Source: Candidatus Bathyarchaeota archaeon
Lineage (GTDB): Archaea; Thermoproteota; Bathyarchaeia; Bathyarchaeales; SOJC01
Assembly: GCA_023131225.1 (NCBI GenBank)
Contig: JAGLZW010000028.1
Location: 1 to 55,080, forward strand
Direction of reading: 5' to 3'
Length of the DNA: 55,080 nt
Shown here: positions 11,864 to 53,115 of the stretch, one piece after another
Layout: each line of letters opens with the position of its first letter
Position numbering within the stretch: position 1 is the first letter of the stretch
The notes under the pieces: model-generated
The model's database searches: none
Seen by the model: only the letters and a program-made list of their open reading frames with translations
Told to the model about the DNA's origin: nothing
Made by a program: the position numbers and the translations under genes

Positions 11864-11880
11864 ACAACTATAATTGTTGT
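11864..11880. promoter_or_regulatory. Inverted repeat between TATA box and start of R-M operon
   Basis: ACAAC (11864-11868) and GTTGT (11876-11880) form a perfect 5-bp inverted repeat with a 7-bp AT-rich spacer, placed between the TATA box and the leaderless start. It is positioned to act as an operator, possibly for the small leader protein itself. Confidence 0.45.
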
Positions 11881-11913
11881 GTGTATTTAAGTTTTGCCAT
11901 AGCGACCATAAAA

Positions 11914-11949
11914 CTTATATAATTATAGCCACTATAGTAACCATAGTGG
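11914..11949 (+). promoter_or_regulatory. Transposase promoter with overlapping palindrome
   Basis: TATA box CTTATATAAT at 11914-11923 is followed by CCACTAT (11929-11935) and ATAGTGG (11943-11949), a perfect 7-bp inverted repeat over the expected start of transcription. It could be an autoregulatory site or part of a terminal repeat. Confidence 0.5.
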
Positions 11950-11957
11950 TTAGCAAA

Positions 11958-13091
11958 ATGATGAGCCTTCAAGAACTTGAGAAACTCCGTGAAGAAAGGG
12001 GTTTGGAAATTGTTAACAATAATAGAAATCACATAAAAAGAGCATCAGGTCTTTCTTATACTGTTCTTTCTCAAAGTGGAAATGGCGATTATATTGTTTC
12101 TCAAATAGAAGGTGAGTGGCATTGTTCGTGTCCAGACCACAAGTACAGAAGAGTCAAGTGTAAACATATTTTTGCTGTAGAGTTTTCGATTGCTTTAAGG
12201 AAAGAAGTTTCAAGCAACATTGTTATTGAGCCTTTGAATGTTCAGATTTGTCCGTATTGTCAGTCAGATAAAATCGTTAGACGTGGAGTGAGACATAACA
12301 ACTATGGTGACATTCAAAGGTTTTCATGTAAAGTTTGTAGCAAATGGTTTGTTATCAATCTAGGTTTTGAGAAAATGAAATCTTCTCCTCAAGTTATTAC
12401 CTCAGCTATGCAACTATACTTCACTGGAGCTTCTTTAAGAAATACTGCAAAGTTTCTAAGGCTTCAAGGCGTTAAAGTTAGTCATGTTGCAGTTTACAAG
12501 TGGATTCGGAAATATATCGCTTTAATGGAGAAGTACATTGAGAAGCTAAGACCTCAAGTCTCCGATACTTTTAGGGCGGACGAGGTTTGGCTTAAGATAA
12601 AAGGAGATAGGAAGTATCTATTTGCCATAATGGATGACGAGACACGTTATTGGATTGCTCAAGAAGTTGCAGAATCCAAATACAAGCATGATGCAAGAAA
12701 GCTTTTTCAACTAGCCAAAAAAGTAACTGGAAAAAAGCCTAAGACTTTGATAACTGACGGTCTTCCAGCTTACCGAGACGCATACATGAAAGAGTTTTGG
12801 ACACTCAGAAACCCTAGAACCAAGCACATTAGACACATCAAAATCAAAGGTGACATGAATAACAACAAAATGGAGAGACTAAACGGAGAAATCAGAGACA
12901 GAGAGAAAGTCATGCGAGGGTTAAAGAAAAAAGACACGCCGATATTGACAGGTCTTCAAATATTCCACAACTACATTAGGGAACACGAAGGGTTAGAGGG
13001 TAAGACACCAGCAGAAGCATGCGGAATAACCGTGGAAGGAAAGAATAAGTGGAAAACTCTAATTCAGAATGCAAGTCAAAGTAAGGTTTAG
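11958..13091 (+). CDS. DDE transposase with N-terminal SWIM zinc finger
   Basis: A 377-residue transposase. Residues 56-70 form a SWIM finger (C56-x-C58 ... C68-x-H70), residues 98-127 a zinc ribbon (CPYC/CKVC), followed by a helix-turn-helix region and an IS6/IS240-like DDE catalytic core: Asp208 in ADEVW, Asp267 in ITDG and Glu306 in NNKMERLNG. Start ATG 11958 is chosen because the TATA box at 11914 excludes the longer in-frame ATG at 11874. No clear flanking terminal inverted repeats or target duplications were found, so the insertion boundaries are unknown. Confidence 0.85.
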   Translation: MMSLQELEKLREERGLEIVNNNRNHIKRASGLSYTVLSQSGNGDYIVSQIEGEWHCSCPDHKYRRVKCKHIFAVEFSIALRKEVSSNIVIEPLNVQICPYCQSDKIVRRGVRHNNYGDIQRFSCKVCSKWFVINLGFEKMKSSPQVITSAMQLYFTGASLRNTAKFLRLQGVKVSHVAVYKWIRKYIALMEKYIEKLRPQVSDTFRADEVWLKIKGDRKYLFAIMDDETRYWIAQEVAESKYKHDARKLFQLAKKVTGKKPKTLITDGLPAYRDAYMKEFWTLRNPRTKHIRHIKIKGDMNNNKMERLNGEIRDREKVMRGLKKKDTPILTGLQIFHNYIREHEGLEGKTPAEACGITVEGKNKWKTLIQNASQSKV

Positions 13092-33827: not shown

Positions 33828-34937
33828 TTACCCTACTTCTAGTTCAGCTATTAAGCCCTTTGGTGGATACAAGAACATTTGGCTTTTTTCAGGAGAAAAC
33901 CCAACCGTTACCTCATCAGCTTCTTTGAGCCATTCCCCTCCTAAACTTGGCCTTACAACAGTGATGGAATCGTCATTAGCTAAGCGAATTTCGTAGCGAA
34001 TGTCTGTTCCTTCAAATCGAACTTTTTCAATAACTCCATTTAATTCGTTGACCAATTTTCTCCGTCCCTTCACTATCTCGAAAGCTTCGGGTCTAACTGC
34101 CAAGACAATCCTTTCGTCTATCTGAGAAGCCTCATTTTTCCTTGCGCCAACTTTCAGGTCACCGCGTAACTTTACAATGGTCTTGTCATCTTCCACTCCG
34201 ATCACTCGTCCCTCGAGGAAATTGGATTCTCCGATAAAGTTGGCTATAAAAATCTGTTGAGGATTCATATATAGCTCGTAAGGCGTTCCCACTTGAAATA
34301 TGCGACCTTTTTTCATAACGGCAATTCTGTCGGAAATAGCCATGGCCTCCGCTTGGTCATGAGTGACGTGAATAGCCGTCAATCCCAAGTCTTCCACAAG
34401 TCGTTTTATCTCGTATCTAAGTTCATTACGAATTTTCGCGTCTAAAGCGCCTAAAGGCTCGTCTAATAACAGAATTTTAGAGCCAGCAGCTAATGCCCTT
34501 GCCACCGCGACACGTTGCATCATACCACCGCTTAGCTCGTGGGGATAAGCATCAGCACGTTTGTCCAGTTTTACCATCTCCAGTGTTTCGCGGCCGAGGC
34601 GTGCAGCCCTTTTCTCTTCCCAAGCCTTTACTCTAGGCCCATAGGTTACGTTGTCGAAAACGTTCATGTGGGGAAACAAGGCGTAAGTTTGAAAAACGAA
34701 GCCGATTCCTCGGTCTTCTGGAGGGACATCGTTGACTAAGGTGTCGTCTATGTAAATTTCTCCTTTGGTTGGTTGAATTAGGCCTGCAATCATTCTGAGT
34801 AGTGTTGTTTTTCCACAGCCACTTGGTCCTATGAGGGAAAAATATTCTTTATCTTGAATTTCTAGGCTGACGTTGTCAACTGCCAAGATTTTCTTTCCGA
34901 AACGTTTTGTTACGCCTTTCAATTGTATTTTCGGCAT
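33828..34937 (-). CDS. ABC importer ATP-binding protein with TOBE domain
   Basis: 369 residues from ATG 34937 (GGTGAG upstream). Walker A GPSGCGKTT, signature LSGGMMQRVAVARAL, Walker B ILLLDEPLGALD and HVTHDQAEAM, then a C-terminal TOBE domain from about residue 275. This is the CUT/iron/sulfate/putrescine type of importer ATPase. It partners the fused permease upstream. The substrate is not readable. Confidence 0.93.
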   Translation of the reverse strand: MPKIQLKGVTKRFGKKILAVDNVSLEIQDKEYFSLIGPSGCGKTTLLRMIAGLIQPTKGEIYIDDTLVNDVPPEDRGIGFVFQTYALFPHMNVFDNVTYGPRVKAWEEKRAARLGRETLEMVKLDKRADAYPHELSGGMMQRVAVARALAAGSKILLLDEPLGALDAKIRNELRYEIKRLVEDLGLTAIHVTHDQAEAMAISDRIAVMKKGRIFQVGTPYELYMNPQQIFIANFIGESNFLEGRVIGVEDDKTIVKLRGDLKVGARKNEASQIDERIVLAVRPEAFEIVKGRRKLVNELNGVIEKVRFEGTDIRYEIRLANDDSITVVRPSLGGEWLKEADEVTVGFSPEKSQMFLYPPKGLIAELEVG

Positions 34938-34956
34938 CAACACTCACCATCCATAT

Positions 34957-36624
34957 CTAATAGACAGCTTTCCTCCCAACTCCTAATTTAAGGAAAAGCA
35001 ACACTATAAAAGAAAGCCCAATAAGGATTCCGCAGCCTAACCCAACATCTGAAGCAGTTGCGGGAATTGTTTCTCGAACCCAGTCCACAAGCAACACTGG
35101 TGCTGTCTTAAGTTGAGACACTACTGCTAGAGTTGCACCAGTTTCACTTACACTTCTCGTCAACACCATGATGGCGCCAGCGAGCAATGAATACTTGGTC
35201 AAGGGTAGAATTATGGTTCGAAACACTGCAAAAGGCTTGGCTCCGTGAATGCGAGCAGCATTTTCTAATTCTATGTCTGTACGCTCTATTGCTGCGGTCA
35301 TAGATCTTACGAAGTAGGGATAAGTGATTGAAAGATGGGCCAAGATTAGCAAGACTATCTCTGGCACGAACGCAAAATTAGTCCAAAAAATACTCAGAGA
35401 AGCTCCCAGAGCCGTAGAAGGCACGATTATTGGAATGTTAACGAGAATGTCCAGAACACCTGAAACAGATCTTCCCATTCTTTTTCGCGCAATCAGAATT
35501 GCCATTGGCAGCCCAGCTAAGATGCTTAGCAATGTGACGAGTGCTGCGACAGAATATGACAAGCCCAGACTTGACCAGTAGTCTTGCCAAATTCCGGAAC
35601 CTGAAACTGCGTTGTTTATGGTGCCATCCATTATCGCTGTAAAGGTAGGTACTGCTACGAAAAGTGAAGGAATGATTACTAACAAAAAGAAGACTAGTAG
35701 TGTTAAGGTGTCTCGGGTGGCAGCTACGCCTTTTGAACTCAGATTTCGCTCAAATGAAGGCCAAACACGTCGAATTGGCACATGTAACCTCTTTCCAAGA
35801 ACAAGGATCACACCGAAAATTGCGCATGAAATTAGTATTAGTATTAGGCTTACGAAGACCAGTGGACCTTGCTGACCATCAATTTTCATGTTTTTCACAA
35901 AAATAGCGCCATTTTCAAACGCCCCAGCCACCATCATAGTTGCTCCAGTTTCACTAATTGACCGAGCAAAAGCCAACACAAAAGCACCAATCAAACTAGG
36001 CTTCAAAATTGGAAAGGTTACAGTTCTATATACGGTGAAAGTTGAAGCTCCCAAAGTTCTAGCTGCTTCTTCAGAAGTACGCTGATAATCGAGAAGCGCT
36101 CCAACCATGACCCGTACAACAACTGGAAAAGAAAAAACGAAGTGAAGAAGTATTACGAGAAGCCACCCTGGAGAAATCAGACTGCCACCAAAAAGCGACG
36201 AAATCCCTTGAGGACCACTCCAAAATAAAAGCAGAGAATAACCCAGAGTAACGGTGGGAACCACAAAAGGAATGTCCGCGAGCGTATCTACAACGTTTAT
36301 CCATCTGGATTTCCCTCTTGAAATAAACCAAGCTGTAGGTATTCCAGCGACAAGGTCGATTATGGAAACAAAAATGGCAACTCCAAAGGAAGCCCAAATG
36401 GCATTAGTCGCTCTGGACATTAACTCCGGGTTTTCAGTAATTTCGCCAATCAGGTTCCATTTTAGGCCTATTCCGAAAATAGGTGGGACTAGAATCAACA
36501 CGAGAAAGAAAAGTATGGCTCCAACGTAGATGCTGTATGCGATTGTTCGATGAGACGAAAGTTTATCGAGGATTGTTACTTTGAATTTGGGCAATTTTAC
36601 TTTTCTCTCTCGCTTTCTGTTCAT
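34957..36624 (-). CDS. ABC importer permease, two fused membrane domains
   Basis: 555 residues containing two complete binding-protein-dependent permease domains, about six helices each. Each half has its EAA loop: EEAARTLGASTFTVYRTVTFPI and ENAARIHGAKPFAVFRTIILPL (slightly degenerate). Fused permeases of this layout move Fe3+, thiamine or phosphonates. No periplasmic/lipoprotein binding protein lies nearby. Twenty bases separate it from the ATPase gene. Confidence 0.92.
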   Translation of the reverse strand: MNRKRERKVKLPKFKVTILDKLSSHRTIAYSIYVGAILFFLVLILVPPIFGIGLKWNLIGEITENPELMSRATNAIWASFGVAIFVSIIDLVAGIPTAWFISRGKSRWINVVDTLADIPFVVPTVTLGYSLLLFWSGPQGISSLFGGSLISPGWLLVILLHFVFSFPVVVRVMVGALLDYQRTSEEAARTLGASTFTVYRTVTFPILKPSLIGAFVLAFARSISETGATMMVAGAFENGAIFVKNMKIDGQQGPLVFVSLILILISCAIFGVILVLGKRLHVPIRRVWPSFERNLSSKGVAATRDTLTLLVFFLLVIIPSLFVAVPTFTAIMDGTINNAVSGSGIWQDYWSSLGLSYSVAALVTLLSILAGLPMAILIARKRMGRSVSGVLDILVNIPIIVPSTALGASLSIFWTNFAFVPEIVLLILAHLSITYPYFVRSMTAAIERTDIELENAARIHGAKPFAVFRTIILPLTKYSLLAGAIMVLTRSVSETGATLAVVSQLKTAPVLLVDWVRETIPATASDVGLGCGILIGLSFIVLLFLKLGVGRKAVY

Positions 36625-36663
36625 TCAAGGCGTATATCGAGGTTTTCAAACAGGGGGCAACGC

Positions 36664-37323
36664 TTAGAATTCTCTTGTAGACGCAAGGATTCTCACGTAG
36701 TCTGCAGTGTCATCACATGAATCGGCTACATGCTCCATTTCTTCTGCCAAGTCTCGAAGGAAAAGCACTGTTGCCGCGTTCATTTCGTCTGAATGTTGAA
36801 GAAGAAGTTCCTTTATCTCTTGGTATTTTTCGTCGATTTCGCCCTCTATTTTGTCAATCGTTATTGCAAGTCTTTTTGCTTCAGGTGGGTTTGTTCCAAG
36901 CGCTTCAATTGCTCGACGCAAGATCTTTGCACATTCAACTAGTTTGGTTGCTATGCAAACAAGGGGTTTCCAGAAAATCTCTGGAATCTTCGTCTTAAGT
37001 ATCATATCAACGCTTCTCGCCGCATCTTTAACATGGTCCGCCATCTCGTCCAATCTTTTAACAAGATGCATTATGTCTTCGCGGTCTTGAGGAGGCATCG
37101 TGTTTTTCGTTAGTTCTTCAAAAATTGTCCTTCGCAGCTCATCAATCTCGTGTTCAATTTTAGACAAATGCCTAATGTGAGATTCAGCTTCTTTTTTGCT
37201 GTTTTTCGCAGCCGCCGCCACGGCTTTCCGCAAATCCACAACCGTGTCTGTTGCCAGAATCATCTGTCTATCTGCAAGTTCAAGAACCCTAGATTTTCGC
37301 CTTCTTGCAAACCATCTTTCCAT
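36664..37323 (-). CDS. DUF47/PhoU-like protein
   Basis: A 219-residue, all-helical protein of the DUF47 (TIGR00153) family: KIEHEIDELRRTIFEEL, DREDIMHLVKRLDEMADHVKDAARSVD and EEMEHVADSCDDTADYVRIL. The E-x-x-x-D repeats bind metal clusters. Family members modulate phosphate transport, often next to Pit permeases. Here it precedes the ABC importer by 39 bases, suggesting joint expression. Start ATG 37323 behind AAAGGTGA; GTG 37332 is an alternative. Confidence 0.88.
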   Translation of the reverse strand: MERWFARRRKSRVLELADRQMILATDTVVDLRKAVAAAAKNSKKEAESHIRHLSKIEHEIDELRRTIFEELTKNTMPPQDREDIMHLVKRLDEMADHVKDAARSVDMILKTKIPEIFWKPLVCIATKLVECAKILRRAIEALGTNPPEAKRLAITIDKIEGEIDEKYQEIKELLLQHSDEMNAATVLFLRDLAEEMEHVADSCDDTADYVRILASTREF

Positions 37324-37388
37324 AATTCTCACCTTTTCTCAGAATCATATTTGTTAGTTACCTATTACTTTTTGGTTTTTAACTAAAT

Positions 37389-38060: not shown

Positions 38061-39404
38061 TTAGGCTTCAGCGCATAAGTATTTGTCTTTTTGGAGCTCT
38101 AGGGGGCACCCGCCTCCGCAAATGTGTAGCTGCGGGCAGTCTTTGCATTTTGGTTCTGCATATTCTCTGTTTCTAAGTTGTAGGGCGAGGGGGTGTTTCC
38201 AAATTTTTTTCCAGTTATCTTTGAGAATGTTGCCTAGGCTTTCAAAATAGCTTTGGCATGGGTAAACGTCGCCGTTGGGTGCAACGCACATGTTAATTAA
38301 CGCGGCTGTGCAGGATTTTACACCTAAACCTAGTTTGACAGGATCGAGGCGGCAGTACTGAGTCGGTGTGTACCACAGAAATTTTAGTCCAAGATGGCCT
38401 GCTTTTTCTCTGATCTTGGGAAGAAGCTCTTTCAACGTTTCAATTGATAGGGCAAATTCGTCGCTTACTTGGATGGCTTTTCCAGAGTATATTAGGCTGT
38501 TGCAGCCAAAAGTTGCGATGCCTAGCTTCTTAATGAAATCTATGGTGTCTAAGAAATCGGCTGCGTTGTATTTGTTGAGTGTGGTGTTTGTTGTAACATA
38601 GATTTGTGTGTTCACTGCGTTTTTGATTCCGGCAACGGTTTCTTTCCAGCTTCCTTTCTTGCCGGTGATTTTGTCGTGGATGACGGCTTTGTGTGATTCT
38701 AGGGTTATTTGGGTAAAGTCTAATCCCGCGTTTTCCAAGGATTCTACGTATTTTTTGTTTTGTAGTCTTCTTCCATTCGTGATGAGCCCCGTTACTATGC
38801 CTGTTTCTTGGGCATGTTTTAACAGTTCAGCCAGGTCTTCTCGCAGGGTTGGTTCTCCGCCCGTGAAGGTTGCGATGAATACTCCAATCTGCTCCAGTTT
38901 GTTGATGACTTCTCTCCATTGTTGGGTTGTGAGTTCGGCGGTTTTGTGGGGTCCGCCAGCATAACAGTGGATGCAGTTGTTTTGACATTGAAAGGTTAAT
39001 GCCAGATCCATTCTTAGGGGGGCAGACAGTGGTTGCGTGAAGGGTTCAACTTGCTTTACGTCAAGATATGAAATTGGACAAACTTCTTCAGTTTGTGCAA
39101 GGGTGCTTATTGAAAAAATTAGTTTTTCATGTTCTTCACGGGCTGTCTCCGTTTTTACACGATAAATTTTCCTTATGTTCTTGACTGCTTCTTCCACTGG
39201 GATTCCCTGCATTAGAAAGTAGGCGTGGGCTGTTGCGGTTTCATTTAGATACAGAACGGTGTTGGCGTTGATGACCAGTAGTCCTTGGCCGCTGGGCTCC
39301 ACTCGAAGCTGCAAGGCCATCCTTGCGAAATCTCCAACTCCTCTGTACGTGTAGCGACCCGTAGGGATCTTGGAATGTTTGAAGGCTTTCCGAAGGAAAC
39401 TCAA
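38061..39404 (-). CDS. Radical SAM/SPASM peptide-modifying enzyme with PqqD-like N-terminus
   Basis: 447 residues. Residues 30-105 resemble a PqqD-like RiPP recognition element (LLVINANTVLYLNETA ... IPVEEAVKNI). The radical SAM core has the cluster motif C140-x3-C144-x2-C147 and GGEP at 182-185. The C-terminus is a SPASM domain with about ten cysteines (for example CVAPNGDVYPC, CKDCPQLHICGGGC) for auxiliary clusters. This is the layout of enzymes that modify ribosomal peptides, such as sactisynthases. Start TTG 39404 lies 13 bases past the upstream stop, with AGGAGG nine bases ahead. The proposed substrate is the Cys tail of the upstream protein (inference). Confidence 0.9.
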   Translation of the reverse strand: MSFLRKAFKHSKIPTGRYTYRGVGDFARMALQLRVEPSGQGLLVINANTVLYLNETATAHAYFLMQGIPVEEAVKNIRKIYRVKTETAREEHEKLIFSISTLAQTEEVCPISYLDVKQVEPFTQPLSAPLRMDLALTFQCQNNCIHCYAGGPHKTAELTTQQWREVINKLEQIGVFIATFTGGEPTLREDLAELLKHAQETGIVTGLITNGRRLQNKKYVESLENAGLDFTQITLESHKAVIHDKITGKKGSWKETVAGIKNAVNTQIYVTTNTTLNKYNAADFLDTIDFIKKLGIATFGCNSLIYSGKAIQVSDEFALSIETLKELLPKIREKAGHLGLKFLWYTPTQYCRLDPVKLGLGVKSCTAALINMCVAPNGDVYPCQSYFESLGNILKDNWKKIWKHPLALQLRNREYAEPKCKDCPQLHICGGGCPLELQKDKYLCAEA

Positions 39405-39417
39405 ATGTTACGACCTC

Positions 39418-41034
39418 CTACCCTGCACCCCCACCGGCACAGGCGCAAGCACATGAAACGCATGCACAGGCACATGCACAGGCTGCGCAGGCACATACGC
39501 AGCTTGAGCCGTGGTGTGCAGGTTTATGTGAAGTCCGCGGAGGTGGAGCTGCTGGGATTATTGCATTCGCAAATATTTCAAGATTAGCTACAATGCTGTT
39601 AGACGTGTTTTCTATTGCTGTCGCAATGTTGTTGGCGAAGTCTGCCCCTGGGATCTTGGGCGGAGATTTAGCTTTAGCTGGTGCGTCTATGTTAGGTTTG
39701 TATGTAGGTCGGGGATGATACTGCTGATAGCTGTACCAGTACCAGAACCAGAAAGGAGTCGGTTCAAAGACTCGGTTCTTGAAAGTTGTTTCGGTTCTCG
39801 CACGGTGTTGTGGGTCGAGAAGCAGCCATAGGAGTTGTTCATCATACGCTTTGGAGGCTAGCTCCGATGTCCCAGCCTGCTCTACTTGTCTCCAAGCTTT
39901 TTCAACTATCTTTCTGTAGTAGTCGATGGTGTCGCGTCTACAATAGCCCCGAAGTTTCTCTTCAACCGAGCGACGCAGAAATAAGATCGTCTCAGCCAAC
40001 ATTTCTTCATCTAACATGCCGTCTTCTTTTATCGCTTTTAAGAAATCTATTTCATAGTATCGAAGTGGTGTCCCGCCTAGCTCACTGGGTTTTTTACTCT
40101 TGAAGGGCTCCATAACCCTCAGCGTCACTGAAGGTTTGGTGGCTGTGACCCAGACGGCTCTCTTCTTTAAAAGGCTATAAAGAATCTCGGTCACTATCAT
40201 GTTTGGTTTTAAGAAGAGATAAGAGGCTTCTACGGCTGTAAGGCCGCGCCTTATCCCAAGAGCTTCCACACTCATTATAGGTTTAAGATAAGGTCTCTTT
40301 CGAAGGGCAATTGCTATGAGCCCAACTATCAAGGACAAGACTATCAGAACAGCGATCCATGGACCATATGTTTGCAGGAAGCTTGGTTGAACCTCGTAGT
40401 GTTGAACGAATTCTTCGGGGAATGAAACTCCAAAAGTATATTTCTGACTTGGAGCTAGGTTGTGTCGCTCCCAATAAACAGCGAAGTTGCCATCTTCATA
40501 ATCAGCGTTATCCCATTCTACACTTGTCAATGTCTTGAGGTTGCTCTCCGTGACTCCGGGAGGTGTAACAATTTGGACGCGAAGATCATCTATTCTCACA
40601 GGAAACCACGTCGGCGTAAATTGCATTCCCACATTGCCAGGATTCTGCGTGTCTTCCCATATCATGTGTCCCACGTTGGTTGTAAGGTTAAATCGAACGC
40701 TTTCCCCAGCGTTGAGATCTTCCACGTCAACCCGCACTTTGTAATCGTCTTGATGGCTTGAATCCACAGCGTCCAATTCATTGTTGTTCTCGTCAAAAGC
40801 TTGGCCGATTGTAAAGTCATAATTGGGTTGGCCGATTTCAACCCAGTGTAGTACTCCTTCATCGCAGACGATTGTGACGTCGTAGAGAATGTCTACTGTT
40901 CCGTCCTGGTTTATCCATATTTTAACCCATTCGTGCTCCAGATGGTACACGAGGTTCTGAGCTTCCACAGAGAGAACTCCCATTGACAAAACAAGAATTA
41001 AAATGCAAAGCATAGGAAGTTGCAGCCTTACCAT
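39418..41034 (-). CDS. DUF2207-like membrane protein with alternating Cys-Ala C-terminal tail
   Basis: 538 residues: signal peptide 1-25 (cleavage after VEA), an external beta-rich domain 27-220, a transmembrane helix 224-245, then a cytoplasmic region to about 430, an aromatic stretch (FWFWYWYSYQQY, 429-440), a Pro/Ala linker, and a tail with ten cysteines at 512, 514, 516, 519, 521, 523, 525, 528, 530 and 532 ending GGGAG. The tail is mainly Cys-Ala dipeptides and would lie inside the cell. Domain order resembles DUF2207 proteins. It overlaps the upstream gene by seven bases and precedes the radical SAM gene. Function unknown; the tail is a likely target for modification or metal binding. 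Confidence 0.85.
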   Translation of the reverse strand: MVRLQLPMLCILILVLSMGVLSVEAQNLVYHLEHEWVKIWINQDGTVDILYDVTIVCDEGVLHWVEIGQPNYDFTIGQAFDENNNELDAVDSSHQDDYKVRVDVEDLNAGESVRFNLTTNVGHMIWEDTQNPGNVGMQFTPTWFPVRIDDLRVQIVTPPGVTESNLKTLTSVEWDNADYEDGNFAVYWERHNLAPSQKYTFGVSFPEEFVQHYEVQPSFLQTYGPWIAVLIVLSLIVGLIAIALRKRPYLKPIMSVEALGIRRGLTAVEASYLFLKPNMIVTEILYSLLKKRAVWVTATKPSVTLRVMEPFKSKKPSELGGTPLRYYEIDFLKAIKEDGMLDEEMLAETILFLRRSVEEKLRGYCRRDTIDYYRKIVEKAWRQVEQAGTSELASKAYDEQLLWLLLDPQHRARTETTFKNRVFEPTPFWFWYWYSYQQYHPRPTYKPNIDAPAKAKSPPKIPGADFANNIATAIENTSNSIVANLEIFANAIIPAAPPPRTSHKPAHHGSSCVCACAACACACACVSCACACAGGGAG

Positions 41035-41375
41035 TTCGGTTCCTCGGCCACCTCAACCGTGTGTCCACAATAGCTGCAAGTCGCATATGGCACACCCTCT
41101 ACAATTTTTATCCTATCGGGCTGAATTGAAGCCCCACAATTAGGGCACTTTATGGGGACAGCCTTCATCTCCCCCGAAAACTCAACTCTGTGAATTATCT
41201 CAGTAGGTTTCCTACCAATGATGTACAGAGTGGCTATTACTCCAAAACCTGCCATGAACAAAATCGCAGCAACCGCCAACCTCATAGGAGCATATGCAGA
41301 AGCAAGGGCAAACACTATCCCAAAGAAGAAAAGAATAATTACAACAATAGCACCAAGCAAAAATTTTAAGTCCAT
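41028..41375 (-). CDS. Membrane protein with C-terminal zinc ribbon
   Basis: 115 residues from ATG 41375. Two transmembrane helices (about 4-24 and 31-52) precede a cytoplasmic zinc ribbon with CPNCGASI and CSYCGHTV. It is the first gene of a three-gene operon and overlaps the DUF2207-like gene by seven bases. It may tether or present the partner proteins at the membrane (inference). An in-frame ATG at 41399 gives eight more residues. Confidence 0.8.
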   Translation of the reverse strand: MDLKFLLGAIVVIILFFFGIVFALASAYAPMRLAVAAILFMAGFGVIATLYIIGRKPTEIIHRVEFSGEMKAVPIKCPNCGASIQPDRIKIVEGVPYATCSYCGHTVEVAEEPKW

Positions 41376-41505
41376 AAAAGAAAAGCACGCAGTTCTCATA
41401 ATTCAACTTTTCGCATACAAGCGCGCGCATGTCGAGTGTGAAAGGTGTGCTATCTTGTCTTTTAGAGTTAAAATTTTGTCCAACCAACCAACTGCTTTTA
41501 ATAGC

Positions 41506-41540: not shown

Positions 41541-41697
41541 GCATGATATCGCTCGCTCGCAACTGAAAATGGACCGAAAGTTGAAAGAACCAAGAGGCAG
41601 GAGATTGAAACTCTAATCAACGAAGAGGCTCTACTCTTAGCTAAATTTCTGAGAGATGAAAGAAAGAGTTGGGTTCCTAGAATTGCTATTCCTTGAG
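41524..41697 (+). pseudogene. Frameshifted small gene ahead of metallopeptidase
   Basis: ATG 41524 opens a frame (MESKRQHDIARSQ) that stops after 30 codons, while an overlapping frame without a start codon (from about 41557) encodes a protein-like stretch KRQEIETLINEEALLLAKFLRDERKSWVPRI and stops at 41697, just before the next gene. The two parts together look like one gene with a frameshift. A programmed shift cannot be excluded. No family recognised. Confidence 0.4.
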
Positions 41698-41706
41698 GGA
41701 ATAGCG

Positions 41707-42036
41707 ATGAACATACGCATTCCTTCTAAGAAGGTCTGCGAGAACTTTCACTTAATCTACGAGCTTAAAGGAGCACAGAAAGGAGTAAATGTTCTGACTG
41801 AATACTATGGAATTCAGAAGATGAAGATAATACTGAATGGTAGAAGGGTGATGAGAGCGTGTGAGTGTGATTACTTCGAAGGTATCGCATGCTTCACTAA
41901 GAAAGGGCTGAACAAACGAAACGTCTTGCATGAGTTATATCATCATATCGTGGAAAATAAAGGGCTAGAGATGAGTGACAGAAAAGAAGAAAAGGAAGCG
42001 AGTAGCTTTTCAAGAAAGTTTACTAAAATGCTTTGA
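41707..42036 (+). CDS. IrrE/ImmA-like metallopeptidase, small
   Basis: 109 residues from ATG 41707 (GAGG upstream). HELYHHIVE near residues 78-86 matches the zinc-peptidase HExxH motif with a downstream acidic helix, and the size and layout resemble stand-alone ImmA/IrrE (DUF955-like) domains, which often cleave repressors in mobile elements. Its partner would be the broken gene directly upstream. Confidence 0.65.
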   Translation: MNIRIPSKKVCENFHLIYELKGAQKGVNVLTEYYGIQKMKIILNGRRVMRACECDYFEGIACFTKKGLNKRNVLHELYHHIVENKGLEMSDRKEEKEASSFSRKFTKML

Positions 42037-42054
42037 CCAAAAGAGGGAGACGAG

Positions 42055-42064
42055 TTTTTATATT
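42055..42064 (+). promoter_or_regulatory. TATA box of DNA methyltransferase gene
   Basis: TTTTTATATT at 52-61 bases ahead of the ATG at 42116. Confidence 0.5.
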
Positions 42065-42115
42065 GGACTAAAATGTATAGGTTCATTGAAACTTGAAAGT
42101 GTCAGGAATTAAATA

Positions 42116-43576
42116 ATGTCACCTGCTGAGTCCGTTTTTAAACTCCACAATTGCGACGTTCGTAAATTTAAACAGTTTTTGGAAAGTCGCGGCAGTTACA
42201 AAAAATTTGTCGATGTGACCATTACCTCTCCTCCCTATTTTGATTTAAAGAGTTACGGATATAAGAATCAAATCGGATACGGTCAAGAATTTTCTGACTA
42301 CATGAACGATCTTGGGAAGTTATTCAGTCAAATTAAAGATGTAACAAATGATACGGGGTCATTATGGATAATTGTTGACGACTTCAGTAAGAGAGGCAAA
42401 CTAGTTAATCTACCGTTTAAACTTGCTGAGAAGATGGAAAACATTGGATGGAAATTAACTGATATCTTGATATGGAAAAAAGACAAAACATTACCGTGGT
42501 CAAGTAAGGGTCAACTACGTAACATTTTTGAATATATCCTTTTTTTTACAAAAACAGGGAATTTCAAATTCTACGGCGATCGGATAAGAAACTTCGACAT
42601 CTCCCAATTGAAGGAGTGGTGGGTGAAATATCCAGAACGTTACAATCCTAATGGTGCCCTGCCTACAAACGTTTGGGAATTTCCCGTCCCAACCCAAGGT
42701 AAATGGGGACATACATCCCTTCGACATTTTAATCCTCTTCCCCCGAAAATGATTGAAAGAATCATATTACTAACGACAGACGCTAACTTGCAAAAGAAGG
42801 ATATCGTTTTGGATCCCTTTGCAGGGTCAGGCTCCGTTCTTGCAGTAGCTGATTATTTAGGAAGACGTTGGTTCGGATTCGAAAAAAATAAGCAGTATTG
42901 TGAAATGTTTGAGAACTCTGTTCTTCAATTGATAAAGAATGAGATGATGATTGAGGATGAAAAAAAATCCGAAATCAAGGTATTACATTCAGAATTCCAG
43001 AACAAAATAAAGTATCTTAGGTTGGTGAAATTTCCAAAGAGTTTATTTAGAAAAGCTCTTCAGGAGAAGATTTTGAATTTTAAACAAAATACAGTAAACA
43101 CAATTTTTGCTTTAAGCGTAGAACCAACCGATAAAGAAAAATCAGCGTTACCCAAAAACAAATTCATGGTTGAAGAAATTTTCATAATATCAAACTATAA
43201 TGGTGACCTTGAATCAATAGAAGGTCAACTTACTGAAGTTGCTTCTAAAGAGCCCTTGTCAAAATTCGGGATTGAACCTAAAATTTTTGTTCTAAACAAA
43301 AACGATTTCACGTCCAAATATGGATCTGTATTAGAAAACGCTAGGCTATGGTTATACCTTTCTGGAAGAGTATATAAACTTAGAAAGGCAATAACGTTCT
43401 CACAATGGTCTTTAGAAAATTCAGAAGATCATTGGAAGGATTACTCAAAAAATAATATACCTCCAATAATCACCAATATCAAAGTTTACCAGGAGGTTCC
43501 TACGACCTGGGAATCAAAAGAAAAAAAGTTTAATCGCTTAAAGGTCAAGTATAAAAATGCCATAGGGATAAACTGA
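42116..43576 (+). CDS. DNA methyltransferase, SPPY type (probable N4-cytosine)
   Basis: 486 residues. Catalytic motif TSPPY at 37-41 near the N-terminus and SAM motif DPFAGSGSVLAVADYLGRRWFGFE near 240 give the beta-class order; SPPY favours N4-cytosine methylation. Residues 280-486 are an extra domain with no recognised motif that could recognise sequence. It faces the GHKL ATPase gene convergently. Probably the modification half of a restriction system. Confidence 0.88.
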   Translation: MSPAESVFKLHNCDVRKFKQFLESRGSYKKFVDVTITSPPYFDLKSYGYKNQIGYGQEFSDYMNDLGKLFSQIKDVTNDTGSLWIIVDDFSKRGKLVNLPFKLAEKMENIGWKLTDILIWKKDKTLPWSSKGQLRNIFEYILFFTKTGNFKFYGDRIRNFDISQLKEWWVKYPERYNPNGALPTNVWEFPVPTQGKWGHTSLRHFNPLPPKMIERIILLTTDANLQKKDIVLDPFAGSGSVLAVADYLGRRWFGFEKNKQYCEMFENSVLQLIKNEMMIEDEKKSEIKVLHSEFQNKIKYLRLVKFPKSLFRKALQEKILNFKQNTVNTIFALSVEPTDKEKSALPKNKFMVEEIFIISNYNGDLESIEGQLTEVASKEPLSKFGIEPKIFVLNKNDFTSKYGSVLENARLWLYLSGRVYKLRKAITFSQWSLENSEDHWKDYSKNNIPPIITNIKVYQEVPTTWESKEKKFNRLKVKYKNAIGIN

Positions 43577-43638
43577 TCATTTGGACGCGTCTATATTGAT
43601 TAGCATGTAGAATTTCTAAGATAAAGTATTAGGCTTAC

Positions 43639-45414
43639 TTAGAACCATTTTCTGACGAGTTTTAGGAGCAGGTCTCTCATTTTCCCCATATCTCCTCCAC
43701 TCTTCTCAATAGAGATCTCTATTAGCATTACCAATCTTTCAATCAATGGGCGCTCATGGGCTTTCACTTGTTTGAATGTTGAATGATTTCTGTTAATAAT
43801 GACTTTTTGACGTTTGTTGTCTACAACAACAGGCATTTGATCTTTATCGGAAGATAGTTCGAGGTCGAAAGTCTCTCCAACTTCCTTTTTTATGATTTGC
43901 GTAAGAAGTTTTTCTTGTTTTTCAGCGGTCTTCTTCTTTTTTCTTTCCTTCTTCGCGTAATAATAATCATGTAATGTATATTCGAAAACCTCTCTTTCGA
44001 GAAAATTATGAATAAACTCTTGTAAGTATTGATAGTGTGAGTGGGTAAACTTGAATGAACTCCTGTCAATTGTCATTGCATCTTCAAGTCCCGCCGTTAC
44101 ATAGATTTCTCCAAAAAGCCAATTTCTGAAGACTAGATTTGAGGTCAACGGATAACCAAGTAGAGTAGTATCAGGATTGCCTATTGAGACGTTTCTAATT
44201 CTTGTTATTATCCCGTTATACTCTTTAGGACTAATACTTCCATGTTGACTGTAGATATATCCTTCAAAAGACAAAGTCTTTCCATCTACCACTTTGGACT
44301 CCTTAAAAGGATGCACTTTGTAATTTAACTCATAAATAATTGGGTCTTTACGCATTGGGAATCGCAGTGGTTTTTTCAGTTCTATACCGTCGAAGGTGAC
44401 TTTGAAGTTGTAATTGCTGAGTGTGGATTTTATCTTTTTAATTAACTGAAACTCTTCCGATCCTTCGGGGACGGCTTTTATTGGACCATCAGCAAGATAA
44501 GTTACAGGAGAAATATATGCCAGTTCTATCAGAAATTGCCAATACTCACCAAGATAGGAAAAAGTCTTATTTCCTTTTTCCTCCAAGTGATCTAAGAGTT
44601 TGCTGATCGTAACAGACGAGGAGCCGAAAGGTTCTTTATCAATCAGCATTTCCTTGAATAAAGGTCTAAGATCTTTTAGACGAATTTCTGTAAAATGTTC
44701 ATCTAAATCGTAGCCCTTGTCTACCTTTTTGTAATTAGTTAATTCAAACTGACTGACTTCATAGAACTCTTTCTCAGCTGCTTCACGTTCTCGCGATATT
44801 GAAAAATCTATTTTAGCTTTAAAAACCAAATCAGACTCTTTCTTGGTAGAGGTTATTGTAATCAAGTTACAGAGCTCAGAAACTGCAATAAATCCAATAC
44901 CAATAAAGCCGATTATTGGTCGATTGAATTTCTCAGTAAAATCTCCTTTATCCCTTTTCCTTGATCGACTTATATAAACGAACTCCTCATCGAAATCCTT
45001 GTAGTCCATTCCCTTCCCATTATCCTTAATAATTAACTCGTTACCGTCAAACGAAATATCTACATCTGTAGCATCAGCATCAAAAGAATTGCTGATTAAT
45101 TCTTTGATGCTATTAGCTGGTGAACTATATGTTCCTTCACTTAGAAGTTTGAGAATCTGACTTCCAACTTTCATCGAACCTCTTTGAGGAACATTGAGTG
45201 TAGCATCTATGGTACGATAATAAACGAACGATACTTCGCTGCTTTCTGATTCGGATACGAGTTGCTGCCGTTTTTTCTGAGCTTCCTCCAAGATTTCATT
45301 AACTTCTGCAACAGTCATTTCTACTTGCTCAGCAATCTCCTCACTAGATTTACCCTTATCGAAGGCTGATAGAATTTTCAATTCTTTTGAAGATAGTCTA
45401 ATCTCTTCACTCAT
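43639..45414 (-). CDS. MORC/HSP90-like GHKL ATPase with N-terminal HTH
   Basis: 591 residues. Residues 5-50 form a helix-turn-helix (SSKELKILSAFDKGKSSEEIAEQV). Residues 80-330 are a GHKL ATPase: N box ELISNSFDAD (105-114), DNGKGM (131-136), GFIGIGF (169-175), followed by an S5-like domain. The C-terminus (from about 490) is a charged coiled coil and unclear domain. Prokaryotic MORC-like ATPases have been linked to restriction-modification loci by Iyer, Abhiman and Aravind. Its position against the methylase supports a restriction role (inference). Three-base gap from the upstream small gene. Confidence 0.85.
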   Translation of the reverse strand: MSEEIRLSSKELKILSAFDKGKSSEEIAEQVEMTVAEVNEILEEAQKKRQQLVSESESSEVSFVYYRTIDATLNVPQRGSMKVGSQILKLLSEGTYSSPANSIKELISNSFDADATDVDISFDGNELIIKDNGKGMDYKDFDEEFVYISRSRKRDKGDFTEKFNRPIIGFIGIGFIAVSELCNLITITSTKKESDLVFKAKIDFSISREREAAEKEFYEVSQFELTNYKKVDKGYDLDEHFTEIRLKDLRPLFKEMLIDKEPFGSSSVTISKLLDHLEEKGNKTFSYLGEYWQFLIELAYISPVTYLADGPIKAVPEGSEEFQLIKKIKSTLSNYNFKVTFDGIELKKPLRFPMRKDPIIYELNYKVHPFKESKVVDGKTLSFEGYIYSQHGSISPKEYNGIITRIRNVSIGNPDTTLLGYPLTSNLVFRNWLFGEIYVTAGLEDAMTIDRSSFKFTHSHYQYLQEFIHNFLEREVFEYTLHDYYYAKKERKKKKTAEKQEKLLTQIIKKEVGETFDLELSSDKDQMPVVVDNKRQKVIINRNHSTFKQVKAHERPLIERLVMLIEISIEKSGGDMGKMRDLLLKLVRKWF

Positions 45415-49346: not shown

Positions 49347-51257
49347 ATGTCTTCATCTATGTTAAGCCACACAATTAAGAGAACAAGTAACCTTCTTAAA
49401 TCGGGTGCTTCTGACCAAATCACCGAGTATGAGAACCGCCTTCAACCCTTGCAAACACTCTACGACCGTTTGCTTTCTAACCTTATTGTTTCAAGCTTCA
49501 GCTACGAGGAGGCTTACGAAACAGCCCGGAAATTCTGGGGTTCTACTCAGGTTCGCTTCGCAGGTATAGATGGCACCATGTACTCTCGTCCCCTCTTCGA
49601 CCTCGTAATCTTCTTCGGCGGCGCTTACGCCTCAACTGGCACCATAACTTTCAAGCCGAACTCCAAACCAGCAGTTCAATACGACGCAAAGACCATCCAA
49701 CAAGGTGCAGGAATCTCCAGCGTCATCCCCGTCTTCATAAGCGAAGTCCCAGAAATAGACCAAACTTTCTTCAGTCAAGAACAACCAGACGAAATAGCCC
49801 TTAACAAGCCACTACAAGACAGCGCCATCATAAACAACGCAACCATCGCCAACTGGATAATGACCTTCGCCGAATACTACCTCGCGTACAAACTCGCCAC
49901 CGACCCAAACCAAGACATACGCATCATCCTCTTAGACAGAAGCTTATCCATCGAACGCGCCAGCCTACTCTACGACACTTCAAAAAGAGACCTCTGGAAA
50001 GCCAAAAGCAACCTAATAGGCTACAAAATAGACAACACACCCATTGACGCCAACGACTTTGCCTTAGGCAGACATCACATCCGAAACCCAGCCCTAGGCG
50101 TTCCACCAGCAAGAGCAGACTACCTCCGCTACGCCATCATCAACATAATCCAACAGAAAAGCCCCGTCTCCAAGAGCCAAATTCTACAAGAACTAGGAAT
50201 AGCAGACGAGAAAAGGGCTAAAAGAGCTGAGAGATACCTCAAAAAATCAGTAAAAGAAGAAATCCTAACAAAAAGAGACAACACATACAGCATCAACCCA
50301 AAATACGCAACAACATGGACTAGACTACAAAAACTCGTAACAACCCTAGGAGACCTCTTCTTTTACACCCAAAAACTAGAAACTCAAAACGCCAACCTCA
50401 TGAAAATAAAGAAAAACGGAAAAAAACATTGGCTCACAACGCTCGACATTGCCTTCCTCACCCTCTTTACCTTCCACATGCTCATAGAAGCATGCTGGAA
50501 AAACAAAATCCTCCTCATAGGCATAACAAAAGACACTGCAGCCCGAGACATGAAACGCCAACTAATCCCCATCCTCAACAACGAAGGCATGCTAAAAGAC
50601 ACAATCACGCCGGAAACATACGAAAAACTACCGAACACCGACCGCATGATACTCCAATCAATCAGCCTATTCAACCCTGAAAAAGTCAAAGTCCCCTGGA
50701 GCCTAATCGAATACGATTCAGCCTTCCGCTCCATGGTCCCAGACCCGCAAACCAGAAAAGGTTACGTGTTGGGTGCCATAAAAAACAGGATAGGCCTTGA
50801 AAAAACCTTTCTCAAAACCTACGTGCAACTCGCCCAAGCCAAAAAAGACCGCCTGCTCCGCAGCAACGTCCTTCTCACAGACCGCCTCGTCTACCCAGAA
50901 TTCGATCATAAGCCAAACACCACAGTTCAATTTTGGAACGAGTTCGGAAGCGCAAAAGAACCCGTCGAAATAATACTCTACAAAGATAAAACTGTCCCAA
51001 ACCAGCTCCAAAACTTGACAATGACAATTCTCATCGCTATGACCCCGCCGAGCATACCTGAAGCCTTCGGACACAACAAACCCCTATTCATCGCCGACAA
51101 AATCGCCAAATGGCACTACGGCCAATTCAAACGCATCGCTGATACCACTGCAAACTGGATACTCAACAACCATAAATTAAGAAAGTTCGTATTCTACATG
51201 AGTACATTCCGCGAAAGGAGAACAGCAATTGAAGCCACAAGAAGAGAAAACCCATAA
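49347..51257 (+). CDS. NurA-like nuclease, enlarged, with internal winged helix
   Basis: 636 residues, well above the usual 330-450 of NurA. The NurA core is recognisable from GIDGTM (Asp75) and ILLDRSLSIERA (Asp near 203), with a long C-terminal part. Between the two core parts, about residues 258-325, lies a winged-helix-like insert (KSPVSKSQILQELGIADEKRAKRAERYLKKSV). It would resect DNA ends with HerA. The downstream HerA start overlaps its end by 29 bases. Codons are strongly C-ending, unlike AT-rich neighbours. Confidence 0.8.
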   Translation: MSSSMLSHTIKRTSNLLKSGASDQITEYENRLQPLQTLYDRLLSNLIVSSFSYEEAYETARKFWGSTQVRFAGIDGTMYSRPLFDLVIFFGGAYASTGTITFKPNSKPAVQYDAKTIQQGAGISSVIPVFISEVPEIDQTFFSQEQPDEIALNKPLQDSAIINNATIANWIMTFAEYYLAYKLATDPNQDIRIILLDRSLSIERASLLYDTSKRDLWKAKSNLIGYKIDNTPIDANDFALGRHHIRNPALGVPPARADYLRYAIINIIQQKSPVSKSQILQELGIADEKRAKRAERYLKKSVKEEILTKRDNTYSINPKYATTWTRLQKLVTTLGDLFFYTQKLETQNANLMKIKKNGKKHWLTTLDIAFLTLFTFHMLIEACWKNKILLIGITKDTAARDMKRQLIPILNNEGMLKDTITPETYEKLPNTDRMILQSISLFNPEKVKVPWSLIEYDSAFRSMVPDPQTRKGYVLGAIKNRIGLEKTFLKTYVQLAQAKKDRLLRSNVLLTDRLVYPEFDHKPNTTVQFWNEFGSAKEPVEIILYKDKTVPNQLQNLTMTILIAMTPPSIPEAFGHNKPLFIADKIAKWHYGQFKRIADTTANWILNNHKLRKFVFYMSTFRERRTAIEATRRENP

Positions 51258-53115
51258 TCAAACATACTTCACCAACTTCAACGGCAGATTCCACGCCCGC
51301 CTAAGCCACGTCGTCCCCCGCCAATTCGGCATCGTAAGTGAATCCAAATTCACAGGAATAAGCGCCCGCTACCAAGCCCGAATCAAAGTAGAATACCAGA
51401 AAGACCTCATGGGCCTCCTCGAAGAAGGCATGCTCTTAGCAATCCCAAACTTCAAACAAACCGAACCCAACACCCAAAGATACACACTCATGGAAATCAG
51501 CAGAGTCTGGCCAGAACACTTCGGCCTACGAGGCCTTTCAGATCATGGATACTACCCCATGCAATTTGAAATCATAGAACAGTCAGAAGCCGACTGGCAA
51601 ACCAACGACAAAGCCACCATGATCATCCAAATCAGCGCCATCCCCGTCAACTACGACCTCACCCTCTGCTCCAGCGGCGAATGCAAATTCACAAAAGGCT
51701 TCAGCTACCCCATCGTAGCCAGCCCTGCCAACATCCTCAACAGCATCATGATAAACCGCATGTACAACCAAAAAATCACCCAAAAACTAGGCGTAGACCC
51801 AACCAAAACCACACCCGACGCTCACCGAGACCCCCGACTAGGCATAATCAAAATGTTCCAAGCCAGCAAAACAACAATCCCAATATACATAGACTTTGAA
51901 AACCTTGTCCGCTACCACTTCGGCGTCTTCGCATTCACCGGCGGCGGCAAAAGCAACCTCATGTCAAACATCCTAAGACGCATCCTCCTCCACACACAAG
52001 ACACAAAAATCGTCATCTTCGACATAAGCTGCGAATACATCTTCCTCCTCCTCGACATCCTCTCAGACCCCACAATCCCCTCAAAAGTCATCCTTGAACA
52101 CAAAATAGAATCCCTAGAACAATTCTTCAACTCAGTCGTCAAACCCAGAGAATATGAAACCGACCAAAGAATCAAAACAGGACTCAAAAAAATTATGGAC
52201 CAAGCCAAGCTATCTTACTACACCAAACCCAAACAGAAAGTTCCCACATACAGCCAATTTCTTGAAGAACTCGAAAACCAAAGAAAAAACAGCACTGATA
52301 AACCCCACTACATAAACGCCATAGACAGAATCAGCGACACCATCCTAGAATACGTCGAACAACACGCCCTCAGCGAAAACCAAGAAGTCGACAAACAATT
52401 CATAGAATACATAGAGCCCATAGCCCGTGAAGTAGTCCAAACGTTCAAAGTCCACGAGAAAAGCGGACTTTACGCATGGGCAACCACCCGCAACGCCCTC
52501 ACAGAAGTCATAAAGAAAAGACAAGAAGAGGAACAGAAAGAAGGCGGACTCACAGCTGAAAAAATCCGCAACCTACTAGAAGGCGAAGGAAGAATCGTAT
52601 GCATCTCCATCTCAGACCCCTACACGATAAAAGAGCTCATCATATCCCTCACACGCAATCTCCTCACCCGCCGAAAACGCAGATTCCAAGTCAAACCCTA
52701 CATCCTACTCGTCTTCGATGAAGCCCAAGAATTCATCCCCGACTTAGGCGGCTCCGTAGGCATAGACAAAAAATGCAGCAAACAAGTCGAAACCCTACTA
52801 AGACAAGGAAGAAAATACGGCTTAGGCGTATGCATCGCCACCCAAAGACTGGCCTACCTAAACACCAACGCCCTACAACAGCTCCACACCTACTTCGTTG
52901 GCACCCTACCTCGCCCCTACGACCGCACCCTCATCAGCAACACCTTCATGATAGACCAAGGTATCCTCGAAAAAACACTCGAATTCGCACCAGGTGAATG
53001 GCTACTATCAAGTTACATAGCTACAGGCATAGAAAATGTCCCCATATTCATCCAAGCAGATAACGCTGAAAACGAACTTGAAAAATTCCTCTCAGCCTCC
53101 ATCCCTCAAACCTAA
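51229..53115 (+). CDS. herA: HerA-like DNA translocase ATPase
   Basis: 628 residues. A HAS-like barrel occupies about 20-150. The ATPase domain has Walker A FTGGGKSNL (about 235-243; canonical HerA has GxxGxGKS), Walker B ILLVFDEAQEFIP (about 493-505) and TQRLAYLNTNALQQLHTYF near the C-terminus. HerA hexamers push DNA to NurA. Start TTG 51229 lies eight bases after AAAGGAG inside the NurA gene. Mre11 and Rad50, the usual housekeeping neighbours, are absent. Confidence 0.85.
   Translation: MKPQEEKTHNQTYFTNFNGRFHARLSHVVPRQFGIVSESKFTGISARYQARIKVEYQKDLMGLLEEGMLLAIPNFKQTEPNTQRYTLMEISRVWPEHFGLRGLSDHGYYPMQFEIIEQSEADWQTNDKATMIIQISAIPVNYDLTLCSSGECKFTKGFSYPIVASPANILNSIMINRMYNQKITQKLGVDPTKTTPDAHRDPRLGIIKMFQASKTTIPIYIDFENLVRYHFGVFAFTGGGKSNLMSNILRRILLHTQDTKIVIFDISCEYIFLLLDILSDPTIPSKVILEHKIESLEQFFNSVVKPREYETDQRIKTGLKKIMDQAKLSYYTKPKQKVPTYSQFLEELENQRKNSTDKPHYINAIDRISDTILEYVEQHALSENQEVDKQFIEYIEPIAREVVQTFKVHEKSGLYAWATTRNALTEVIKKRQEEEQKEGGLTAEKIRNLLEGEGRIVCISISDPYTIKELIISLTRNLLTRRKRRFQVKPYILLVFDEAQEFIPDLGGSVGIDKKCSKQVETLLRQGRKYGLGVCIATQRLAYLNTNALQQLHTYFVGTLPRPYDRTLISNTFMIDQGILEKTLEFAPGEWLLSSYIATGIENVPIFIQADNAENELEKFLSASIPQT

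Follow-up and report, generated by a model that had tools for sequence, protein, structure and literature searches.

The stretch of DNA analysed here (55,080 nucleotides, hereafter the window) is part of a 1.92-Mb Bathyarchaeia genome (genome G000, contig C28). On its minus strand it carries three genes that encode, in order of transcription, a small zinc-ribbon membrane protein, a larger membrane protein that ends in a run of Cys-Ala dipeptides (the tail protein) and a radical S-adenosylmethionine (SAM) enzyme with a SPASM domain and a recognition element (RRE) of the kind found in the maturation of ribosomally synthesized and post-translationally modified peptides (RiPPs). The first two genes overlap by 7 nucleotides and the last two are separated by a gap of 13 nucleotides (Table 1). 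A preliminary description of this DNA had reported three overlapping or tightly spaced genes without a protease or exporter; all three open reading frames were found on the minus strand, the three-gene arrangement is real, and a comparison of locus neighbourhoods revealed neither a protease nor an exporter conserved with the trio, nor any further gene kept with it across taxa.

The tail protein ends in CVCACAACACACACVSCACACAGGGAG, with Cys at residues 512, 514, 516, 519, 521, 523, 525, 528, 530 and 532, just as the preliminary description had given a tail of ten Cys followed by GGGAG; ten Cys within 21 residues form a dense CxC/CxxC array of the metallothionein-like type. About 50 homologues with 30 to 90% identity were collected from a scan of genome contigs and from searches of related genomes. 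Nearly every complete Bathyarchaeia copy ends CVCACAxCACACACVSCACACAxGGxx with few exchanges, the same tail is present in four other Thermoproteota families (L087-L090), where the first block is altered or shortened in some, and the tail proteins of Edwardsbacteria, a bacterial phylum, end CACACACAGCACACAGGGR. The Cys-Ala core is invariant even at 30% overall identity. Among 18 diverse members, no other 22-residue stretch of the protein was as conserved as the tail (0.775, compared to 0.624 for the best stretch elsewhere and a mean of 0.353). When window codons were compared with those of the relatives one by one, taking in relatives up to one locus with ambiguous bases, the proportion of nonsynonymous differences (pN) was ~0-0.08 in the tail at a synonymous proportion (pS) of 0.2-1.0, mostly saturated, while pN was 0.05-0.36 in the linker just ahead of the tail and 0.05-0.35 in the body of the protein. 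Together, the conservation scores and pN/pS values indicate that the tail sequence is under tighter constraint than the remainder of the protein. Its hydrophobicity across 19 residues (Kyte-Doolittle 2.25) would also suit a membrane-associating segment whose conservation reflects insertion and not modification; however, membrane segments allow exchange among Leu, Ile, Val and Phe, whereas Cys and Ala of the tail are invariant at 30% identity, and the AlphaFold2 model shows no helix there, with a predicted local distance difference test score (pLDDT) of ~25. We regard a membrane segment as a very improbable explanation.

In the enzyme, Radical_SAM (86.9 bits) and SPASM both scored above the Pfam cut-offs, while PqqD was sub-threshold in the window enzyme (19.4 vs 23.4 bits) and was matched in 8 of 13 family members. 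The AlphaFold2 model (pLDDT 77, predicted template modelling score 0.79) contains an N-terminal domain of three strands and three helices and matches SkfB across most of its length, followed by SuiB, PqqE and CteB; the closest solved relatives of the enzyme profile are SkfB and PqqE, with SkfB first by sequence and by structure. All three marks of the RRE-SPASM peptide-modifying enzymes, namely the CxxxCxxC core, the seven-Cys SPASM motif and the N-terminal RRE, were found; the enzyme alignment (A1) shows no variation in the first six SPASM Cys and a variable seventh. Domain matches thus bear out the RRE-radical SAM-SPASM layout proposed earlier, as does the structural resemblance to SkfB, SuiB, PqqE and CteB, all of which are peptide- or RiPP-type enzymes. 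Between the most distant groups, archaea and bacteria included, enzyme identity is still ~46-50%.

Table 1. Features of the three-gene locus, given as positions in the window.
Feature	Position	Strand	Basis
Small membrane protein, 123 aa; two predicted transmembrane helices, cytosolic CxxC...CxxC putative zinc ribbon, C-terminus EEPKW	41028..41399	-	Open reading frame, hydropathy
Tail protein, 538 aa; signal peptide, beta-rich ectodomain, one transmembrane helix, cytosolic domain, Cys-Ala tail; proposed substrate	39418..41034	-	Open reading frame, hydropathy, AlphaFold2 model
Predicted signal peptide, residues 1-26	40957..41034	-	Hydropathy; model helix 5-19
Predicted extracellular beta domain, residues 27-222	40369..40956	-	AlphaFold2 high pLDDT, Foldseek
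Predicted single transmembrane helix, residues 226-244, then RKRPYLKP (positive inside)	40303..40359	-	Hydropathy
Conserved helix IPGADFANNIATAIENTSNSIVANLEIFANAI, residues 461-492	39559..39654	-	Conservation 0.44 vs 0.21-0.23 in flanking linkers
Cys-Ala tail CVCACAACACACACVSCACACA, residues 512-533; CxC runs joined by CxxC	39436..39501	-	Conservation, pN/pS
Terminal GGGAG; GGGxG, SGGxG, HGGAR or GGGR among homologues	39421..39435	-	Kept among homologues
Shine-Dalgarno-like AGGAGGT	39413..39419	-	Sequence; 8 nt upstream of enzyme TTG start
RRE-radical SAM-SPASM enzyme, 447 aa, TTG start; proposed modifying enzyme	38061..39404	-	Pfam domains, AlphaFold2 model, structure comparison
RRE/PqqD-like domain, residues 16-104	39093..39359	-	Beta-beta-beta-alpha-alpha-alpha order in model; PqqD matches in family
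CxxxCxxC radical SAM cluster motif, residues 140-147	38964..38987	-	Motif; invariant in alignment A1
SPASM motif Cx12Gx4C...Cx2Cx5Cx3C, residues 365-433	38106..38312	-	Motif; alignment A1

The distribution of the two proteins was surveyed in 398 Thermoproteota genomes and 10 Edwardsbacteria genomes; the counts are raw with respect to phylogeny, related genomes not being independent. Among the Thermoproteota, the tail protein was found in 29 genomes, the enzyme in 30 and both in 27. The locus is cut by a contig end in both tail-only genomes, and every Thermoproteota contig that runs beyond the tail gene also has the enzyme gene. A DNA pattern for CACACA-x-G matched in 29 of 398 genomes, 27 of them with this family, and its reversed control in none, which argues that the tail is not a chance occurrence; the matches outside the family (G052 and G366) were set aside since they look like chance, with no tailed homologue at those loci. 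In Edwardsbacteria the enzyme and the tail protein were each present in nine of ten genomes and together in eight; three genomes have the two genes within ~3 kb of each other, whereas in two (G427, G428) they lie on separate contigs. The preliminary description had held that its proposal would fall if the tail commonly occurred without a radical SAM gene; instead, the pairing is near-obligate, the tail lacking an enzyme over the cut-off used only in the contig-end cuts and a single Edwardsbacteria genome (G422), while three Thermoproteota genomes have the enzyme alone. Plasmid records gave no relative at E <= 1e-30, and a scan of viral contigs returned distant radical SAM matches only, with no Cys-Ala tail. 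As a separate observation, the tail-protein and enzyme genes of one locus (L187, genome G018) both look broken, with frameshifts and a missing 5' part, owing to decay or poor assembly.

The association might in principle reflect only the inheritance of an operon, without any functional link, since most genomes have the genes side by side and the correlated divergence of the two families (r = 0.88 over 43 loci) is what an operon alone would yield. However, linkage is retained despite different gene orders in the four outlying Thermoproteota families (L087-L090), in two of which (L089, L090) the order is reshuffled so that the three genes face different ways, and the two Edwardsbacteria genomes G427 and G428 keep both genes although they are unlinked. 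Shared neighbourhood without function is, in our view, highly unlikely.

Because the strong transmembrane helix of the tail protein is followed by basic residues, the tail should be cytosolic, on the same side of the membrane as the enzyme, and this predicted topology agrees with the intracellular C-terminus of the preliminary description. Located 20 residues ahead of the tail is a conserved helix (consensus IPGADFANNIATxxExxxNxIVxNLExFANxI) whose PGADFAN segment is common to the Edwardsbacteria proteins too, and which is a plausible candidate for a leader-like recognition element bound by the RRE. Enzymes of this class have their peptide-binding domain in the N-terminal RRE, yet in SuiB the peptide is bound independently of it (PMC6231123). 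In the mechanism that we propose, the RRE would dock on the cytosolic end of the anchored protein, perhaps at this helix, the SAM radical and the SPASM clusters would modify the Cys-Ala tail, and the tail would be neither cut off nor exported and would stay on the protein. Since the conserved tail is almost always accompanied by the enzyme, the enzyme probably modifies the end of the full-size anchored protein. We consider it very likely that the tail is the substrate of the enzyme, and likely that the genes constitute a two-component, often three-gene, RiPP-like maturation system acting on the cytosolic tail of an anchored protein. The earlier suggestion that the substrate would be the end of a large membrane protein and not a free peptide is in this respect supported by the comparative evidence.

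Regarding the chemistry, a thioether is the simplest product since the substrate is made of Cys and Ala, and the likeliest products would be links from Cys sulfur to the alpha- or beta-carbons of alanine; this assignment is made tentatively. Ala is a known sactionine acceptor, as in the Cys9-Ala25 link of thuricin CD Trn-beta (PMC8172795). Another radical reaction on the tail, such as epimerisation, Cys oxidation of the formylglycine type or a carbon-carbon linkage, would be in keeping with the chemical diversity of RRE-SPASM enzymes and with the matches of the model to SuiB, anSME and the epimerase EpeE, but a substrate of nearly pure Cys and Ala favours a sulfur-based linkage, as does the position of SkfB as first match, and we judge such a reaction to be rather unlikely. 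The arrangement of the Cys as CxC and CxxC, like the zinc-ribbon partner, points to a metal or redox role, in which the modified tail would probably be a rigid, thiol-rich, metal- or redox-active appendage; that the tail goes on to bind metal or act in redox is nonetheless a doubtful proposal. Equally speculative is the complete picture, in which an enzyme common to archaea and a candidate bacterial phylum would turn the C-terminal Cys-Ala run of a full-size membrane protein into a poly-thioether tail that is active with metals or in redox and stays anchored for good, as a RiPP core without release.

Several observations weigh against modification of the tail by this enzyme. Three genomes (G281, G342 and G413) have the enzyme and neither a detectable tail protein nor a Cys-Ala/Gly run anywhere; incompleteness alone is an unlikely cause because two of the three share one genus, and no clear alternative Cys-rich neighbour of the enzyme was seen at the loci inspected. 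Conversely, the Edwardsbacteria genome G422 has the tail and no enzyme over the cut-off used. Sactionine acceptors are mostly Thr, Ser, Tyr, Phe or Met, and AlbA rejects Ala at its sites (PMC8172795). Biochemistry for this family was not found in the literature searched. The enzyme-only genomes would also fit an unmodified, metallothionein-like metal-binding tail next to a radical SAM gene that is functionally associated but whose enzyme has a different target, as would ten Cys in 21 residues with CxC runs joined by CxxC, and a zinc-ribbon partner. Metallothioneins, however, have mixed residues between their Cys, whereas the spacers here are almost always Ala or Val/Ser, and a further argument against this explanation, which we consider improbable, is that the tail is nearly always paired with an RRE enzyme, even where the genes are unlinked and even in a bacterial phylum that is only distantly related. 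Metal binding may come after modification and is therefore compatible with it, as bufferins do for copper (PMC12452194). With regard to gene content, in the two enzyme-only genomes of one genus (among loci L184, L185 and L186, which belong to G281, G413 and G342, respectively) a second radical SAM gene and an aldehyde ferredoxin oxidoreductase-like gene, as read from the sequence, lie nearby.

The closest known analogue is the TIGR04222/MNIO pairing. In a 2025 survey, the predicted substrates of MNIO enzymes include some TIGR04222 membrane proteins whose periplasmic tails are rich in Cys (PMC12452194), and the idea of a Cys-tailed membrane protein as a RiPP-type substrate thus has a predicted precedent. 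Both systems combine a large membrane protein, a C-terminal Cys-rich low-complexity tail and an adjacent peptide-modifying enzyme, and both are only predicted. In contrast to the present system, MNIO is an iron enzyme, the tail is Ser/Gly-rich and predicted to be periplasmic, the distribution is mostly in Actinomycetota, and the association is looser, with 490 of 1372 genomes lacking MNIO (PMC12452194). No NCBIfam match to the TIGR04222 domain was obtained in 18 tail-protein members, and the radical SAM protein is the only conserved linked enzyme, the neighbour families at the loci having been scanned for MNIO in part. The maturases SkfB, CteB and AlbA share the RRE-radical SAM-SPASM/Twitch layout and a Cys-containing ribosomal substrate (PMC6231123, PMC8172795), but their known substrates are short secreted peptides with a leader, protease and exporter. 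The short precursor with leader, protease and exporter that marks sactipeptide and ranthipeptide clusters was lacking here, where the candidate substrate has 538 aa and no protease or exporter is conserved. TvgB is likewise a radical SAM enzyme that modifies successive short repeats (TVGG motif), but on a free precursor peptide, with exporter and peptidase genes and cyclopropylglycine as product (PMC9062424). The radical SAM family TIGR04463 (rSAM_vs_C_rich) has a name that indicates a Cys-rich partner; membership was rejected, as the score of 39.9 bits against a cut-off of 525 separates the two. The preliminary description had known of no characterised system of this kind: no description of this one was found in the open-access literature searched, nor a match in the searched passages of an archaeal RiPP mining paper (PMC12144867) and an RRE mining paper (PMC12710340), while the idea itself is anticipated by the TIGR04222/MNIO prediction. 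RiPP-type chemistry is usually seen as a route to small diffusible molecules; a dedicated enzyme for the tail of an anchored protein, if true, would place it in permanent protein function in uncultured anaerobic archaea and bacteria. The substrate, made of Cys/Ala repeats, is unusually simple, which makes the product directly testable, and the protein family has no current annotation.

The tail protein matched no Pfam or NCBIfam family above cut-off, and a PDB sequence search with its profile gave no match. Its earlier label as DUF2207-like was not supported above cut-off. It shares with DUF2207 (E. coli YciQ) a signal peptide, ectodomain, transmembrane segment, low-complexity glycine-ending tail and weak N-terminal similarity, but it falls under the Pfam cut-off and has one transmembrane helix and a Cys-Ala tail, whereas the YciQ tail is Gly-rich. 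The best score for PF09972 was 23.4 bits against a gathering cut-off of 24.4, in divergent members, the window protein itself giving no match; all members tested were sub-threshold, and hhalign gave a profile probability of 0.6% with YciQ, the Pfam scan and genome search likewise being under cut-off. Any relationship to DUF2207 would appear to be remote at most. By Foldseek, the ectodomain in the AlphaFold2 model has a fold like that of the beta domain at the N-terminus of M1 aminopeptidases and of ribophorin I; this match spans the beta domain only and gives no function.

Almost every Thermoproteota locus whose flanks are complete, rearranged loci included, has the zinc-ribbon gene, which was not found in L088 or in the Edwardsbacteria loci. 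The open reading frame and its two predicted transmembrane helices agree with the membrane protein described earlier, while the zinc ribbon itself is based on the motif CPNC...CSYC, all Pfam matches being under cut-off. Edwardsbacteria loci (L117-L122) have, directly upstream of the enzyme, a gene that overlaps its start and encodes a conserved small membrane protein of ~180 aa ending GKRKVKKWL, which is missing in archaea, where the zinc-ribbon gene occurs instead.

Elsewhere in the window, an ABC transporter ATPase, a fused double permease and a PhoU-like protein are encoded downstream of the trio (33828-37332), a linkage that is not conserved elsewhere. Upstream lie an N6/N4 DNA methylase and a large HATPase_c_3 protein (41656-45414), which suggests a restriction or defence island. 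At 49347-53115, an open reading frame without a Pfam match precedes and overlaps the gene for a HerA-type helicase (DUF87), as in a HerA-NurA pair. Positions 11874-13091 encode an IS240-type DDE transposase that has a SWIM zinc finger at its N-terminus.

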